Assembly (NCBI GenBank): GCA_026992075.1
Contig: JALXAM010000007.1
Coordinates: forward strand, 1 to 64,000
Direction: 5' to 3'
DNA length: 64,000 nucleotides
Origin: Sedimenticola sp.
GTDB lineage: Bacteria; Pseudomonadota; Gammaproteobacteria; Chromatiales; Chromatiaceae
In this document: piece by piece, positions 1 to 9,512 of the stretch
Position numbering within the stretch: position 1 is the stretch's first letter
Layout: the number at the start of each line of letters is the position of its first letter
The notes under the pieces: model-generated
The model's input: the letters and a program-made list of their open reading frames with translations, nothing else
The model's database searches: none
What the model was told of the DNA's origin: nothing
Program-made: the position numbers and the translations under genes

Positions 1-1234
1 GGATCATCGCCTTGCTGCCGGTGAGGCCGATGAGCCGCTTGTCGAAATAGGTGACGTAACCCGCCAGCACTTCCTGGGTGTCCCGCTCCGGGTCCACCGT
101 GATGAACCAGGGTTGGATCCGGTCGGCCAGCGGACCCAGCTTCTTCAGCGCCGCGCTCATCACCTGCAGTGAAGTGGGACAGACGTCGGGGCAGTAGGTG
201 TAACCAAAATAGATGAGGGCGAATTTGCCCTGCATTTCCTCCGGCGTCACCACCCGTCCCTGGTGATCGATGAGCATGAAGCGCCCACCGATGTGGGGCA
301 CCACCACGCCCGAAATGGTGGTATCCAGCATGGTCGAAGCCTCGCCCGGCTGGATGCACTCCTTGAGCACCCTGGTGTTGTATTCCATCACTTTCAGATA
401 GAGATCCTCACCAGGCTGGAAGCGGGTACCGAAACTGTCCAGTTCCGCCTGCGGGACCTTCACTCCCTTCATCAACAGCGGCCACTCGGGCATCTTCATA
501 CGGGCCTCGGTGACCACGCAGGCGTACTCTCCCTCCACCAGCCGGGCATGCTGCTTGAGCAGCTCGTCCGCCTTCACCGGAACTCCAGGCCGCGGCGAGA
601 GCACGGCCCCCACCCGCAGCGCATAGGCCTGTTGGAAATACTGGAGAGTGTCGTAGGTCTCCAGGATCACCCCACCCTTGAGACCCCGGTAACCATATTC
701 GAGCCGCCGGTCGAGTTCCCCCAACCGTTTCATCAGGGCATCACGATTGCGCTGGTAAACGTGGGTGCGCACCGGATCCCGTTCCATGAGTAACTGAGTA
801 AGCTCGTCCACCAGGATCAGCATGTTGCGGGTGTCGAGCCAGAAATATGGATCCCGTTCCCCTTCGTTCCAGCGGGAGGGAAGGATCTTCAGCGCATCGC
901 TGTCCAACAGGGTGATCACCCGAGCCCTTTTCGCCAACCGTTCCAGCGGCTCCACCAGGAAGCCTTCCAGCTCGGGTCCCACCCAAACCACCAGGTCCGC
1001 TTCGGCCAGCGCCTGTTCCTGTTCCGGGCCGAGCTCGTGTTCGTAGGGAGTCCTGCCCGCGGACACCAGAAGCTCCAGGTTGCCCACTCCCTTCATGAGG
1101 GCAGCCAGAACCGAATGGATCGGCTTGATACTCACCACCACCTTGAGGTCGTCACCGGCTTGGGCATTACCGGCAACGGCGAACAGGGCAAGGAAAAAGA
1201 GCAGAAGGAGACGAAGCAGCGGTTTTCTGTTCAT
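1..1234 (-). CDS. Fusion protein: N-terminal periplasmic metal ABC substrate-binding domain (ZnuA/TroA-like) plus C-terminal SCO1/SenC domain (C-terminus cut by window edge)
   Basis: Minus-strand frame read by hand from ATG at 1234 with no stop to position 1. MNRKPLLRLLLLFFLALFAVAGNAQAGDDLKVVVSIKPIHSVLAALM (signal peptide plus ZnuA-like start), ADLVVWVGPELEGF, LDSFGTRFQPGEDLYLKVMEYNTRVLKEC, then in the same frame GGRFMLIDHQGRVVTPEEMQGKFALIYFGYTYCPDVCPTSLQVMSAAL (SCO1 CxxxC). Confidence 0.9.
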   Translation of the reverse strand, partial: MNRKPLLRLLLLFFLALFAVAGNAQAGDDLKVVVSIKPIHSVLAALMKGVGNLELLVSAGRTPYEHELGPEQEQALAEADLVVWVGPELEGFLVEPLERLAKRARVITLLDSDALKILPSRWNEGERDPYFWLDTRNMLILVDELTQLLMERDPVRTHVYQRNRDALMKRLGELDRRLEYGYRGLKGGVILETYDTLQYFQQAYALRVGAVLSPRPGVPVKADELLKQHARLVEGEYACVVTEARMKMPEWPLLMKGVKVPQAELDSFGTRFQPGEDLYLKVMEYNTRVLKECIQPGEASTMLDTTISGVVVPHIGGRFMLIDHQGRVVTPEEMQGKFALIYFGYTYCPDVCPTSLQVMSAALKKLGPLADRIQPWFITVDPERDTQEVLAGYVTYFDKRLIGLTGSKAMI

Positions 1235-1255: not shown

Positions 1256-1618
1256 TCAGGAGGCGGGCACCGGTGCATCCGGATCATAGGCCCGGATGAG
1301 CTCCTTCTCGGCCTGGTCCACCTGTCCGGAGAAGGTGGCCGGAGAAGGACAGGGCTCACCACCGTTGATGAATTTCAGAAACGAGGCGTTGGTGACGTCG
1401 TCGAACAGCTGCCCCAAGACCCGTTCCTTGGGCAGGTGATCGATGAGAATACGCTTGATTCGGCGGGTCTGGTCGAAATAGCGACAGGCCAGGGCCACAC
1501 CGTTGAGCTCCCCCATCCGCTGCACGGTCTGCTGGCGCACATCGCCACCGCCCTGGGTCAGGGGAGGAAAGAATGCCAACAGCCCCCACAGAAACGCCAA
1601 AACCAACCGATCTCTCAT
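1256..1618 (-). CDS. Small secreted/periplasmic hypothetical protein, upstream in the same operon as the fusion gene
   Basis: ORF MRDRLVLAFLWGLLAFFPPLTQG... with a signal-peptide-like N-terminus, 120 aa, 21 bp before the fusion start codon. Confidence 0.6.
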   Translation of the reverse strand: MRDRLVLAFLWGLLAFFPPLTQGGGDVRQQTVQRMGELNGVALACRYFDQTRRIKRILIDHLPKERVLGQLFDDVTNASFLKFINGGEPCPSPATFSGQVDQAEKELIRAYDPDAPVPAS

Positions 1619-1744: not shown

Positions 1745-1758
1745 TTGACCTGGGTCAT
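1745..1758. promoter_or_regulatory. Candidate FNR/ANR/DNR-type (CRP-FNR family) site TTGACCTGGGTCAT
   Basis: Dyad TTGAC-N4-GTCAT in the divergent intergenic region between 1618 (-) and 1823 (+). Confidence 0.4.
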
Positions 1759-1822: not shown

Positions 1823-2287
1823 ATGGGGCTCATCCGCAAGTACACTCAGCTCAGTCCCCATCTGCGGCTGGCGCTCATCGTGGCTCCCCTGCTGCTAGTG
1901 GGCGGCTACCTCTTGGCGGGCTTCTACCAGCCCGGTCCCGACGACAAACCGAACGATGCGCCCCGCGCCCTGCAACTCTCCGGAAGTTGCCGCTTGCCAG
2001 GTGAGGTCTGCCGACTGCTGCACCGGGAAATCGCCGTCAACGTTGGTGCCGAACAGCAGGGAAAGATCACGGAAATCTACCTGGCCACCAGTGTGCCTCT
2101 GCAGGGTGCAGTGGTGGGACTGGAGAACACCACCCCGGTGACCATGACCACCCGGGGCAGCCTGAAACGCTGGAAAGCACGCCTGCTCCGCCCGCTGCGC
2201 CCCGGGGACCATCTCCATCTGGCCCTGGTGACCCGCGACCACCGTTATTTCGCCGACCTGCCCACGACCCCGGATCATGGAGATTGA
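1823..2287 (+). CDS. Membrane-anchored hypothetical protein
   Basis: ORF MGLIRKYTQLSPHLRLALIVAPLLLVGGYLLAGF...; one N-terminal TM segment; overlaps the start of the next gene. Confidence 0.6.
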   Translation: MGLIRKYTQLSPHLRLALIVAPLLLVGGYLLAGFYQPGPDDKPNDAPRALQLSGSCRLPGEVCRLLHREIAVNVGAEQQGKITEIYLATSVPLQGAVVGLENTTPVTMTTRGSLKRWKARLLRPLRPGDHLHLALVTRDHRYFADLPTTPDHGD

Positions 2288-4127
2288 ACTGCGCGAAATC
2301 CGTGACTTCGTCGCCGCCATCCCCCCTTTCGACCGTCTGGAGAAAAAGCGGGTGGACCGGATGGCAGGCCAGCTGTCCATCGAGTACGTGCGCCGGGGCC
2401 GCCAGGTTCCCAGCGAGGAAAGCACTCCACCCCGCCTCTACATCATCCGGCGCGGCGCCATCGCCCTCTATTCCCGGGACACGCTCATGGGCATGCTGGG
2501 CGAAGGGGACATCTGCACCAGTTTCTGCGCCGCCCAGCTGATGCCGGAGTTCACCGTACGGGCCACCGAGGACACCCTGCTCTACAGCATTCCCTGCAAC
2601 GAACTGGAAGCGCTGGTGGGCGACGACCCCTCGGTGCTCCATTTCATCCGCCACTCGGCGGCGCAGCGTCTGAAAGAGGCGGTGAGCCGCATGCAGGAGC
2701 AGAGCCAGTCCAGCCTGCTGCACAGCTACGTGGGTGACTTCTGCAAGGGGCCGGTAATCACCGCCGAGCCCTCCCTCTCCATCCAGGAGGCGGCCCGCCT
2801 GATGACCGAGAAGGGCATCTCCTCGCTGCTGCTCACGCAGGAGGGAAAGCCGGTGGGCATCCTCACCGACCGGGACATCCGCACCCGCTGCGTGGCGCCC
2901 GGGCTGGCCCTGGAATCTCCCGTGGAACGGATCATGACCCGGGACATCATCTCCATCCGCAGCCGCGACAGCCTGTTCGACGCACTGCTCACCATGACCC
3001 GCCGGCAGGTACATCATCTGCCGGTGATCGACGAGAGTGGGGTGAAGGGCATCCTCACCATCACCGACATCATGCGCCAGGAGGGCACCAGCACGGTGCA
3101 TCTCACCAGCACCATCCGCAAGGCCGACACCCTGGAGGAGCTGGTGGAGGCCAGCCGTATGCTGCCCCGCCTGCAGATGCAGCTGGTCAACCTGGGAGCC
3201 GACCTGGAACATGTGGGCAACGCGGTGAGCGCGGTGACCGACGCCATCACCGTGCGCCTCATCGAGCTGAAGGAGGCGGAGCTGGGCCCGCCCCCGGTGC
3301 CCTATGCCTGGATCTGCGCCGGCTCCCAGGCGCGACGCGAGCAGACCGCCCATTCCGACCAGGACAACGGCCTGATCATCTCCGACGAGATGGAGCCGGA
3401 ACACGCCGGCTGGTTCGAGCAGCTGGCCCGTTTCGTCAACGACGGCCTGAACGCCTGCGGCTTCGTCTATTGTCCCGGGGAGGTGATGGCCTCCAATCCC
3501 GAGTGGCGTCAGACCGAAAGCGTCTGGCAGAGCTACTTCGACCGCTGGATCAACCAGCCGGAGCCCAAGGCGCTGATGCTCTCCAGCATCTTCTTCGATC
3601 TCCGGGTGGTGCATGGCGAGCGGCGCCTGCTGAGCAACCTGCGGGGGCGCATCCTGGAACAGACGCCCAAGAATCAGCTGTTCCTGGGCCACATGGCGCG
3701 CAACGCCCTGAGCCACCGCCCGCCGCTGGGTTTCTTCCGAGACTTCGTGCTGGTGCACGACGGTCAGCACGACGATACCCTGGACCTGAAACACTCCGGC
3801 CTGGTGCCCATCATCGACATGGCGCGCATCTACGCCCTGGCGGAGGGGCTCCCCGAGATCGGCACCGTGGAGCGGCTGCAGGCGGCCGCCGGCACCCCTT
3901 CCCTGAGCAAGGGCGGAGCCGCCAACCTGCTGGACGCCTTCGAGTTCATCAGCCGACTGCGGCTGGAACACCAGGCCGCCCAGATCCAGGCCGGGGAAGC
4001 GCCCGACAACTACATGTCCCCGGCGCAGCTCTCCAAGCTGGAGCGGGAACACCTCAAGGATGCCTTCAAGGTGGTGCAGACCATGCAGGCCACGCTGGAG
4101 CTGCGCTACCACACCGAACGGATCTGA
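2277..4127 (+). CDS. Cyclic-nucleotide-binding-like / CBS-domain / DUF294 putative nucleotidyltransferase
   Basis: 616 aa. CBS pairs (GILTDRDIRTR, GILTITDIMR) and a DUF294-like segment (WICAGSQARREQTAHSDQDNGLI). Upstream of an exonuclease and acs, a known synteny. Confidence 0.85.
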   Translation: MEIELREIRDFVAAIPPFDRLEKKRVDRMAGQLSIEYVRRGRQVPSEESTPPRLYIIRRGAIALYSRDTLMGMLGEGDICTSFCAAQLMPEFTVRATEDTLLYSIPCNELEALVGDDPSVLHFIRHSAAQRLKEAVSRMQEQSQSSLLHSYVGDFCKGPVITAEPSLSIQEAARLMTEKGISSLLLTQEGKPVGILTDRDIRTRCVAPGLALESPVERIMTRDIISIRSRDSLFDALLTMTRRQVHHLPVIDESGVKGILTITDIMRQEGTSTVHLTSTIRKADTLEELVEASRMLPRLQMQLVNLGADLEHVGNAVSAVTDAITVRLIELKEAELGPPPVPYAWICAGSQARREQTAHSDQDNGLIISDEMEPEHAGWFEQLARFVNDGLNACGFVYCPGEVMASNPEWRQTESVWQSYFDRWINQPEPKALMLSSIFFDLRVVHGERRLLSNLRGRILEQTPKNQLFLGHMARNALSHRPPLGFFRDFVLVHDGQHDDTLDLKHSGLVPIIDMARIYALAEGLPEIGTVERLQAAAGTPSLSKGGAANLLDAFEFISRLRLEHQAAQIQAGEAPDNYMSPAQLSKLEREHLKDAFKVVQTMQATLELRYHTERI

Positions 4128-4819
4128 TGGGACTCAATCCCTTCAGTGCCGATGCCCGGCGCCGGCGGCTGGCGAAAAAGGCGCCTCCCGGTCCCCTGCG
4201 GGACTACCTGGAAACCCCCTTTCCCGATCCCGGCACGCCGGTGGACCAGGCCCCCATCCTGGCCATCGATTTCGAAACCACCGGGCTGAATCCTGAACAG
4301 GACCACCTGCTCAGCGTGGGCCACGTGGAGATCGTGCATGGGCGGGTGGAACTGGCCACGGCCCGCCACCAGGTGGTGCTGAGCCACCGCCCCCTGGCCG
4401 GAGAGAACGTCTCCATCCACGGCATCACCGACGACCAGGTGGCTGACGGCGAGCCCCTGGAAAGAATCCTGCCCGGACTGCTTCAGGCCCTGTCCGGAAA
4501 GGTATTGCTGGCCCATCACGCCGCGGTGGAGACCGGCTTTCTGAAAGCGATCTGCCTGCGGCTGTACGGCGTGGCGCCCCTGTTTCCGGTGATCGACACT
4601 CTGCAGATCGCCCGGCGCACCCTGGAACAGCGCAACCAACCCTACCAGAGCCGCGACCTGCGCCTGTTCAATCTGCGCCAGGAGCTGGGCCTTCCAGCCT
4701 ACCAGGCCCACAACGCCCTGTGCGACGCCATCGCCACCGCCGAGCTGTTCCTGGCCCAGGTGGCCGCCAGCGGGGGACGGCGTGCGCCGCCGCTGAAGAA
4801 TTTCCTGACCCGCACTTGA
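4127..4819 (+). CDS. DnaQ-like 3'-5' exonuclease (DNA pol III epsilon family)
   Basis: [26 protein letters not shown]..., [17 protein letters not shown] overlaps the preceding stop (TGATG). Confidence 0.85.
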
Positions 4820-4875
4820 CCTGCTCCGGTCAGTGCAATACAAAAGACCGCATAATCAACAAGGGAGAACCCGAC

Positions 4876-6816
4876 ATGTCCGAAGAAGCCTTCTATCCTG
4901 TTCCCGAAGAATTCGCGAAGAACGCCAACGTGACCGCGGAAGAATACGAAGCGATGTACAAGCGCTCCGTGGAGGATCCGGAAGGGTTCTGGGCGGAACA
5001 GGCCGAGAAGTACATCACCTGGTTCGAGAAGTGGGACAACGTCCTCGACTGGGACTACAAGGACGAGATCCGAATCCGCTGGTTCGAGAACGGCAAGCTC
5101 AACGCCTGCTACAACTGCCTCGACCGTCACCTGGAAAGTCGCGGAGACCAGACCGCCATCATCTGGGAGGGCGACGATCCCAATGAGGATCGCCACATCA
5201 CTTATCGCGAGCTGCACGAGGAGGTGTGCAGGTTCGCCAACGTGCTCAAGAGCCGCGGCGTGAAGAAAGGGGACCGGGTGGCCATCTACATGCCCATGAT
5301 CCCGGAGGCGGCGGTGGCCATGCTGGCCTGCGCCCGCATCGGCGCCATCCACTCGGTGGTCTTCGGCGGTTTCTCCCCTGACGCCTTGCGCGACCGGATC
5401 CTGGATTCCGACTGCCAGACTCTGATCACCGCCGACCAGTCCCTGCGTGGCGGCAAGAAGGTGCCCTTGAAAGCCAACGCCGACCAGGCGCTGCAGGGTT
5501 GCCCCAATGTCCACACCTGCGTGGTGGTGCGCCGTGGCGGCGAGCCCATCGACTGGCACGACGGGCGTGACCTCTGGTACCACGAGGCGATGGAAGGCGC
5601 CTCTGCCGACTGCCCGGCGGAGCCCATGGATGCTGAAGACCCCCTCTTCATCCTCTACACCTCCGGCTCCACCGGCAAGCCGAAAGGGGTGCTGCACACC
5701 ACCGGCGGCTACATGGTCTATGCGGCCATCACCCACAAACTCACTTTCGACTACCACGAGGGCGAGATCTACTGGTGCACCGCCGACGTGGGCTGGGTCA
5801 CCGGCCACACCTACATCGTCTACGGTCCCCTGGCCAACGGCGCCATCTCGCTCATGTTCGAAGGCATCCCCACCTACCCCGACGCCTCGCGCTTCTGGCA
5901 GGTGGTGGACAAGCACAAGGTGAACATCTTCTACACCGCCCCCACCGCCATCCGCGCCCTCATGGCCTGTGGCGACGAGATGGTGAAGAAGACCTCACGT
6001 GCCACCCTGCGGCTACTGGGCACCGTGGGCGAGCCCATCAACCCTGAGGCTTGGGAGTGGTACTACCACGTGGTGGGCGACGGCCGCTGCCCCATCGTGG
6101 ACACCTGGTGGCAGACCGAGACCGGCGGCCACATGATCACCCCCCTGCCCGGCGCCCACGGCCTCAAGCCTGGGTCCGCCACCAAGCCCTTCTTCGGCGT
6201 GCAGCCGGCCCTGATGGACGACCAGGGCAACGAGCTTGAGTTGCCCAACCGCGGCAACCTGGTGATCAAGTTTCCCTGGCCGGGTCAGATGCGCACCGTC
6301 TACGGCGATCACAAACGCTTCAAGGAGACCTATTTCTCCACCTACCCCGGTTACTACTTCACCGGTGACGGCGCCCGCTGCGACGAGGATGGCTACTGGT
6401 GGATCACCGGCCGGGTGGACGACGTGCTCAACGTCTCCGGCCACCGCCTGGGCACCGCCGAGATCGAGTCGGCCCTGGTGCTGCACGACAAGGTGGCCGA
6501 GGCCGCGGTGGTGGGCTTCCCCCACGAGATCACCGGTCAGGGCATCTATGCCTACGTCACCCTGATGGCCGGCGAAGAGGGCACCGACGAGCTGAAGCAG
6601 GAACTCATCGACCTGGTGCGCAAGGAGATCGGCCCCATCGCCAAGATCAATTTCATCCAGTGGGCACCGGGGCTGCCCAAGACCCGATCGGGCAAGATCA
6701 TGCGCCGTATCCTGCGCAAGATCGCAGCCAACGAGCTGGACAACCTGGGCGATACCTCCACCCTGGCCGACCCCTCGGTGGTGGATCACCTCATCGAAAA
6801 CCGGCTCAACCGCTGA
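4876..6816 (+). CDS. acs: Acetyl-CoA synthetase
   Basis: [31 protein letters not shown]..., [58 protein letters not shown]. Confidence 0.97.
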
Positions 6817-7157
6817 GCCTTGTGGCGGCGGGCCGGGCGTCGCCCCCGGCCTGCCGTTCGGCATGGAAACGGGGCGGTCTGTTCCGCCTTGGGCGGCCAT
6901 CCGTGGAGTCCTTTCGGACACGGTAGCAATGGCCCCGAAGGAGAGCCGCTGGCTGCTGCTCCCCACCCTCAAGGACGGCGCCCCCCTACGCCAACCCTCT
7001 TCGACGCCGTCGAGTTTTCCCTGGAGAGCCTCTGGGCCTGAAGCGAACCCTTTGGCATTTCCCTGTCCGGACCATTGATTTTCCGCCGGGTTCCTTCCAG
7101 CATGGCGACAGGCCGGTGCCGATTCCCCGGTGCCCGGAGTGAACGGGAGACTCAGCC

Positions 7158-9512
7158 ATGAAAGAAGAACAACAGATTCTCTGGTTCCAGGAACTGTCCA
7201 TGAAGGACTTGCCCCTGGTGGGGGGCAAGAACGCCTCCCTGGGAGAGATGATCTCCAACCTCTCCGCCGCTGGTGTCCGGGTGCCCGGTGGGTTCGCCAC
7301 CACCGCCACCGCGTTCCGCCGCTTCATGCTGGCGAACGGGCTCCAGTCACGCGTGGACGAGTTGCTGGACTCGCTGGAAGTGGAGGATGTGAATGCGCTG
7401 GCCCGGGCCGGCAGCACCATACGCCAGTGGATCGAGGCGGCCGAGCTCCAGCCGGAGCTGGAACAGGCCATCCGCAAGGCCTACCGGGAATTGGGCGGGC
7501 CGGCGGTGGCGGTACGCTCCTCGGCCACCGCCGAGGATCTGCCCGACGCCTCCTTCGCAGGCCAGCAGGAGACCTATCTCAACTTGCGGGGCATCGACGC
7601 CGTGCTCCAGGGTGTGAAGCGGGTCTTCGCTTCTCTCTACAACGACCGGGCCATCGCCTACCGGGTTCACCAGGGTTTCGATCACAGAGAGGTGGCGATC
7701 TCCGCCGGCATCCAGAGAATGGTGCGGTCGGATCTCGGTGCCGCAGGCGTGATGTTCACCCTGGACACCGAATCCGGCTTCGACCGGGCAGTGTTCGTCA
7801 CCTCCGCCTGGGGCCTGGGTGAGGCGGTGGTGCAGGGCGCAGTGAACCCGGACGAGTTCTACCTCTACAAGCCCAACCTGGCCGCTGGGCGGCCAGCCAT
7901 CCTGCGCCGCAGCCTGGGAAGCAAGGCGGTGCGTTTGATCTTCGGCGACGACGCCACCGAACCGGTGAAGATGGTGGAGACCCCACCGGAACTGCAGCGA
8001 CATTTCTCCCTCACGGACCGGCAGGCGGAAGAACTGGCGCGTTACGGCATGGCCATAGAGAGCCACTACGGCCGGTCCATGGACATCGAATGGGCCCTGG
8101 ACGGCGAGGATGGCAGGCTTTACATCCTTCAGGCCCGCCCCGAGACGGTGAAGAGCCGGCAGCGGCACGGCATCGAAGAATACCTGTTGCGGGAGCGGGG
8201 CCCGGTGCTCTGCCGCGGTCGCGCCATCGGCCAGCGCATCGGCAGCGGCACCGCACGGGTGGTGGCCGACGCCTCGCAGATGGGGCTGGTGCAGGAGGGC
8301 GACGTGCTGGTCACCGACATGACCGACCCCGACTGGGAGCCCATCATGAAGCGCGCTTCGGCCATCGTCACCAACCGCGGCGGCCGCACCTGCCACGCCG
8401 CCATCATCGCCCGCGAGATGGGCATCCCCGCCGTGGTGGGCTGCGGCGATGCCACCAGGCGCATCGGGGACGGCAGCCCCGTCACCGTCTCCTGCGCCGA
8501 GGGCGACGAGGGCCTGGTCTATGAAGGAAGTCTCCATTACGAGGTGATCGCCACCGATCCCGGCCACATGCCGGAACTGCCGGTGAAGATCATGATGAAC
8601 GTCGCTTCTCCCGCCCGCGCCTTCTCCTTTTCGCAGCTGCCCAACCAGGGGGTGGGCCTGGCGCGGCTGGAGTTCATCATCAACAACACCATCGGTGTGC
8701 ACCCGCGGGCATTGCTGGAGTTCGAGCAGCTGCCGGCCTCCCTCCGGGAGCAGATCGAAAAGCGTATCTCGGGCTATGAGAGCCCGCGCCGTTTCTATGT
8801 CGAAAAACTGGTGGAAGGGATCTCCACCCTGGCTACCGCCTTCCATCCGAAGCCGGTGATCGTGCGCCTCTCCGACTTCAAGTCCAACGAGTACGCCAAC
8901 CTGCTCGGCGGCGAGCGCTACGAGCCGGAGGAGGAGAACCCCATGATCGGCTTCCGCGGCGCTTCCCGGTACATCTCGGACGCCTTCCGCCCCTGTTTCG
9001 AACTGGAGTGCCAGGCGCTGAAGTTCGTGCGCGATCAGATGGGCTTCACCAACGTAGAGGTGATGGTCCCCTTCGTGCGCACCCTGGAGGAGGCACGCGG
9101 CGTCATCGACCTGCTGGCGGAGAACGGCCTGGAGCGGGGCGTGAACGACCTGCGCGTCATCATGATGTGCGAGCTGCCCTCCAACGCCCTGCTGGCGGAG
9201 GAGTTCCTGGAGTACTTCGACGGTTTCTCCATCGGCTCCAACGACCTCACCCAGCTCACCCTGGGGCTGGACCGCGACTCGGCGCTGGTGGCCCACCGCT
9301 TCGACGAGCGCAACCCGGCGGTGAAGCGGCTGCTCGCCATGGCCATCGAGGCGGCGCGCCGCCAGGGCAAGTACGTGGGCATCTGCGGGCAGGGGCCCTC
9401 CGATTACCCGGATTTCGCCGCCTGGCTGCTGGAGCAGGGCATCAGCAGCATCTCGCTCAATCCCGACACCGTGGTCAAGACCTGGCTGCACCTTGCTGGT
9501 GGCCTGCAATGA
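7158..9512 (+). CDS. ppsA: Phosphoenolpyruvate synthase
   Basis: [80 protein letters not shown]. Confidence 0.97.

Follow-up and report, generated by a model that had tools for sequence, protein, structure and literature searches.

A ZnuA-like/SCO fusion protein and its small exported partner: a candidate maturation cassette for nitrous oxide reductase

The fusion gene and its surroundings

The stretch of DNA analysed here (the window) comprises positions 1-64000 of the 85,772-bp contig C7 of a Sedimenticola assembly of 76 contigs, and it begins at base 1 of that contig. At its left edge, on the minus strand, lies a gene encoding a ZnuA-like domain fused to a SCO1/SenC domain, preceded by a gene for a small exported protein that we call protein C. 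We refer to the two genes together as the cassette. The features are as follows.

1..1234, minus strand: ZnuA-like/SCO fusion gene, codons 1-411 of 474 (ORF analysis, Pfam and contig join)
1154..1234, minus strand: putative Sec-type signal peptide of the fusion (MNRKPLLRLLLLFFLALFAVAGNAQA), no lipobox Cys seen (read from the sequence by eye)
356..1141, minus strand: ZnuA/cluster-9 substrate-binding-protein domain, residues 32-293, without zinc ligands (Pfam, fold of a homologue, ligand columns)
1043..1045, minus strand: Tyr64, replacing ZnuA ligand His60 (alignment)
845..847, minus strand: Tyr130, replacing ZnuA ligand His143 (alignment)
653..655, minus strand: Tyr194, replacing ZnuA ligand His207 (alignment)
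2..289, minus strand: SCO1/SenC domain, N-terminal part, residues 316-411 (Pfam; the rest lies on contig C62)
179..193, minus strand: CPDVC copper/thiol motif, Cys348 and Cys352 (sequence and conservation)
1256..1618, minus strand: small exported protein C, 120 aa from the ATG at 1618 (ORF open to 1696), 21 bp upstream of the fusion
1745..1758, no strand assigned: FNR/DNR-like palindrome ATGACCCAGGTCAA, one mismatch to TTGAYNNNNRTCAA, upstream of the operon, weak (motif search)

A sequence-only reading of the window had described an open frame from the ATG at 1234 to the window edge, carrying ZnuA and SCO1 domains together, and both statements hold. The frame complement(1..1234) is without stops, and Pfam places both families within it: PF01297 (ZnuA) at residues 32-293 with 119.1 bits, covering the whole profile (1-263 of 263), and PF02630 (SCO1-SenC) at residues 316-410 with 125.3 bits (cut-off 22.8), covering profile positions 1-95 of 134. 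The second match is shortened by the window edge alone. Since the window starts at base 1 of C7, the gene is truncated by a contig end, and its final 63 codons and stop are found on contig C62 (stop at L005:14648). The right end of C62 and the left end of C7 share exactly 127 bp, which looks like the assembly k-mer; the join is based on this overlap and on homologues, not on reads. The joined frame encodes 474 aa with the CPDVC motif, a distal His (His439, recovered on C62) and the C-terminus ...YLVDHSASLYLMAPDGRYITQFAHGITPDQLAEKLREYVR, so that the leftward extension proposed in the sequence-only reading does supply the SCO C-terminus and its conserved His.

The fusion is confirmed as a genuine and widely conserved two-domain protein. 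It occurs as a single ORF in 14 other genomes of the host family at 43-73% identity, some of them near-closed (2-3 contigs). Scanning GTDB genomes for the ZnuA-like domain gave 80 loci, 73 of the type described here (which we call nos-type) and 7 with other ZnuA-like domains. The fusion is a single ORF in 66 of the 73 nos-type loci, the remainder being mostly cut by contig ends or unfused relatives. Because the same fusion recurs in independent and near-closed assemblies, a frameshift, chance or an assembly artefact as its source is excluded. The carriers include Sedimenticola, Ca. Thiodiazotropha, tubeworm endosymbionts, the Solemya velum symbiont, Thiohalomonas, Ca. Thioglobus perditus and one Magnetococcales genome. 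In the literature searched we found no description of a ZnuA-like/SCO fusion; the paper combining the terms ZnuA, SCO1 and fusion dealt with Zur. Two further loci may be recorded here. In the Lamellibrachia anaximandri endosymbiont (L132, 6917-8349) the domains are separate ORFs (6917-7795 and 7804-8349), which reads either as a recent split or as a sequencing error, and genome G025 holds a contig-end fragment resembling the fused type.

Protein C accompanies the fusion closely. It lies upstream in 70 of the 73 nos-type loci, and in all 65 fused loci where the two could be paired the genes are directly adjoining on the same strand, with a median gap of -1 bp. The protein has two invariant Cys and a predicted model that is an all-helical bundle (pLDDT 90). 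It matched no Pfam or NCBIfam family, and no PDB fold matched its model better than E 1.8.

The palindrome upstream of the window operon is weak, and perfect FNR-type palindromes stand ahead of 13 of 70 related cassettes (p 3e-7 against the local background). Divergent from the cassette, at 1706-2287 on the plus strand, is a protein of 193 aa that has a single likely membrane helix and matches no Pfam family, and that lies beside the cassette in the near relatives G011 and G013 also; it is followed (2277-9512) by genes for a DUF294/CBS protein and for acetyl-CoA synthetase-like and phosphoenolpyruvate synthase-like proteins. Across the other flank of the cassette the host genes encode a porin, a sigma factor and a solute symporter. 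The host neighbours on both sides gave no functional clue; the clue came through relatives. Among these, a 413-aa membrane protein without a Pfam match lies between cytochromes and nosD at L155 (13171-14412) and is found in 22 of all 80 loci of the scan. In the Magnetococcales locus (L139, 5280-6899) genes reading as DsbB/DsbA directly precede C and the fusion, and in G047 (L056, 5464-7942) DsbA-like and CcdA-like genes precede an unfused relative.

The ZnuA-like and SCO halves

The fold of the ZnuA half is kept. The AlphaFold model of a 73%-identical relative has a mean pLDDT of 89.5, with a floppy linker at 294-309, and its ZnuA half superposes on E. coli ZnuA (2osv) with a TM score of 0.89. 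Crystal structures have established His60, His143 and His207 as the zinc ligands of E. coli ZnuA (PMC1867320, PMC8900738). In the window protein all three positions are Tyr, and amongst the 66 fused proteins three ligand His are found in 5, two in 1 and one or none in 60, the ligand columns holding a mixture of Y, F, L, Q, W and H. At the Asp position of the LDPLG motif, every one of the 66 has either Asp or Asn. The domain also has no His-rich loop of the kind typical of ordinary ZnuA, and among the neighbours listed we saw neither permease nor ATPase genes of a metal ABC transporter adjoining the fusion. With all three zinc His replaced by Tyr here, and at most one His in 60 of the 66 fusions, zinc capture by the window protein's ZnuA domain is unlikely. 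The sequence-only reading had taken this domain to capture metal, a view that Tyr64, Tyr130 and Tyr194 speak against. Zinc or manganese uptake by the window protein was considered separately and rejected, the ligands being lost and no transporter genes being seen.

The domain nevertheless shows no sign in its sequence of decaying; 51 of 272 positions are invariant in 16 relatives and both C-lobe Cys are kept. On the tree of ZnuA domains, those of the nos-type group in one clade (100/100) that excludes ordinary ZnuA, with the unfused members G047, L126 and L134 near its base. The state of fusion changes at least 4 times on this tree, a pattern that fits both a single fusion event followed by splits and repeated fusion events. 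The five proteins with three His (L109, L111, L115, L116 and L122, from Ca. Thiodiazotropha and relatives) are nested among Tyr/Phe relatives, and in a tree made without the ligand columns they group at 100/100 beside relatives with YYY or YYF at the three positions; their fourth-position Asp has changed to Asn. This pattern is best read as the loss of a metal site followed by its regain in the HHH clade, and given the three His and the firmly nested position a metal site may exist there.

The SCO half has retained its motif. The sequence-only reading had noted an intact CPDVC, and the motif is indeed present, continuing within the window as CPDVCP in agreement with the CxxxCP pattern; the two Cys and the distal His are invariant across 57 fusions. 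In the model of the relative, the SCO half gives TM scores of about 0.9 to ScoI and human SCO1, its best PDB matches. We infer that this domain could bind Cu(I) or reduce cysteines. The fusion has no match to the PCuAC domain (PF04314) in Pfam, and the host genome carries a separate, adjoining pair of SCO and PCuAC genes at C70:63879-64789.

Association with nitrous oxide reductase

The relatives of the cassette, many of them in marine sulfur bacteria, tie it to nitrous oxide reductase. Within flanks of about 7 kb, nosZ, nosD or nosY was found in 34 of the 73 nos-type loci, with nosZ itself (TIGR04246) in 27, against none of the 7 loci with other ZnuA-like domains that the scan also gave. The layouts vary, with cassettes upstream of nosZ, after nosDFY or divergent from nosZ, and the linkage is therefore not one inherited order. 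Co-occurrence is also seen at the level of genomes. Of 195 genomes of the host order, nosZ is present in 68 of the 75 with C and in 34 of the 120 without it (Fisher p 1.5e-18, with related genomes counted as independent), and a hand count by genus gave nosZ in 17 of the 19 genera that have C and in 13 of the 37 that lack it. Nearly all distant nos-type carriers (Magnetococcales, Terasakiella, Rhodospirillales, Thioglobus and others) have a nosZ of the Sec type, which was found in none of the 3 controls with ordinary ZnuA. The host genome itself holds a Sec-type nosZ (862 bits) and a nos cluster with NosD and NosL (PF05573). Both linkage and co-occurrence, as might be looked for in a nos maturation gene, are thus found across the set; in the host genome the two co-occur and the cassette is not adjacent to the nos cluster.

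The association is incomplete in both directions. C is missing from 23 of the 91 genomes of the order with Sec-type nosZ, and in two nosZ genomes (G110 and G197) there was no SCO match at E 1e-6; the cassette is therefore an accessory factor and not essential for NosZ. Seven genomes have C without nosZ, of which five are incomplete, one is a Solemya velum symbiont and one, G094, has no ready cause. In a Solemya velum gill symbiont (L156, 15528-20000) nosY, C and the fusion stand beside a transposase-like gene and no nosZ was found in the genome, which looks like a decayed nos cluster. In nosZ genomes lacking the fusion, a stand-alone SCO gene was found within about 11 kb of nosZ in G025 and G047 only, so that no general rule emerges.

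Proposed role and comparison with known systems

We consider it likely that the cassette is a dedicated periplasmic maturation factor for Sec-exported NosZ, in which the SCO domain would have a copper/thiol role at CuA, the ZnuA fold would serve in docking and C would act as partner. The CuA site of NosZ, in its C-terminal domain, resembles the homologous site of cytochrome oxidase, for which SCO proteins bind Cu(I) and/or reduce the cysteines. In this proposal, the cassette would supply the periplasm with the helical protein C and the soluble fusion. Through CPDVC and the His, the SCO domain would take up Cu(I), reduce the cysteine pair of the NosZ CuA site, or do both. The ZnuA-fold domain, its ligands gone, would carry no metal; most simply it would be a docking or scaffold domain that also makes the protein soluble, in place of the SCO membrane anchor. 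C would take part in a complex with the fusion for NosZ maturation.

Strains of P. denitrificans deleted for pcuC, for the SCO homologue senC2 or for Pden_4445 reduce less N2O when copper is low (PMC7558416); Pden_4445 was not identified in the literature searched. NosL is a copper chaperone for CuZ only (PMC7558416; PMC6530538). Given the senC2 effect and the service of NosL to CuZ, the most likely target of a SCO domain tied to nosZ is CuA. The sequence-only reading had suggested metal capture coupled to CuA-type assembly; the second half of that suggestion fits the linkage to nosZ, with its C-terminal CuA site, and the first half does not survive the loss of the ligands.

Four other explanations may be set against this maturation role. 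The fusion could work mainly as a thiol-disulfide enzyme, holding periplasmic cysteines in the reduced state in anaerobic respiration, with copper transferred by others. The CcdA-like and DsbA-like genes adjoining the unfused relative in G047, and those reading as DsbB/DsbA ahead of the Magnetococcales cassette, point this way, as does the proposal that T. thermophilus Sco1 is a CuA-site reductant (PMC7558416). The linkage to nos genes, however, holds equally for a copper role, and the reading lies close to our preferred one; as copper binding and reduction share the CxxxC motif, the two roles are hard to separate. We regard a mainly thiol-based function as unlikely.

Two explanations assign a transport-like role to the ZnuA half, and we judge both to be quite improbable. 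In one, the domain still takes up a metal, whether Zn, Mn or Cu, and passes it to the fused SCO domain. The close match to the ZnuA fold, the Asp or Asn at the LDPLG motif of every fusion and the three His of the nested Thiodiazotropha clade are in keeping with this; the window protein, however, has Tyr at all three positions, the His-rich loop is missing, neither a permease nor an ATPase of a metal ABC system was seen beside the fusion, and the ligand columns of the relatives include Phe and Leu, residues unable to bind metal. In the other, the domain works with the NosDFY ABC transporter in the manner of a substrate-binding protein and supplies CuZ rather than CuA. Seven cassettes (L082, L104, L114, L120, L127, L129 and L131) do directly follow nosF-nosY, but others are placed before nosZ, and the host nos cluster retains NosL, which is known as the chaperone for CuZ (PMC6530538).

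The fusion might, lastly, serve cytochrome c oxidase as a general factor for CuA assembly and be found in denitrifiers by chance. The classical role of SCO and the best PDB matches (ScoI and human SCO1) are in keeping with this, but we think it very unlikely, as the host already has its SCO and PCuAC pair on C70, nos genes lie beside the cassette in 34 of 73 loci, and none of the recurrent neighbours was recognised as a subunit of cytochrome oxidase.

Returning to the role in NosZ maturation, we lean towards seeing in the cassette a previously undescribed two-protein system for Sec-type (clade II) NosZ, composed of a new helical family and a SCO chaperone with a metal-free, repurposed zinc-binding docking domain, the metal site having been regained in one clade of lucinid-clam symbionts. 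To our knowledge, no biological sink for the greenhouse gas N2O other than NosZ is well established, and we know of little on the copper loading of the widespread clade II enzymes. The cassette offers a concrete candidate for a copper-loading factor and its partner, present in culturable Sedimenticola, together with a natural series of pocket variants (YYY, FFF and HHH), and it looks like a case in which a metal-transport binding protein has been turned into part of an apparent enzyme assembly machine.

Amongst known systems, NosL is, like the role proposed for the fusion, a periplasmic copper chaperone for nitrous oxide reductase, and the host has both; the two have no family in common and NosL serves CuZ (PMC6530538). 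PCuAC/PcuC works with SCO in CuA assembly, whereas the fusion is without a PCuAC domain and the host PCuAC gene lies beside another SCO gene on C70. With ZnuA and the cluster 9 (A-I) proteins the fusion shares a full-length domain, the fold and two C-lobe Cys placed like the disulfide pair of E. coli ZnuA; it differs in that the ligands are lost in almost all fusions, there is no His-rich loop or adjoining ABC permease, and the nos-type domain forms a separate clade (100/100) fused to SCO. The SCO1/SenC proteins (Bradyrhizobium ScoI, Rhodobacter SenC and P. denitrificans SenC2) have in common with the fusion CPxxCP, the distal His and the SCO fold, and one of them, SenC2, is reported to act in NosZ maturation when copper is low (PMC7558416). 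In the fusion, the SCO domain is instead the C-terminal half of a soluble exported protein, with a ZnuA-fold domain in place of the membrane anchor and C, not PCuAC, as its partner. What this analysis adds to the sequence-only reading is the link to nos and the lost zinc site, and we class the fusion as a variant within the SCO family and not as a zinc-binding protein.
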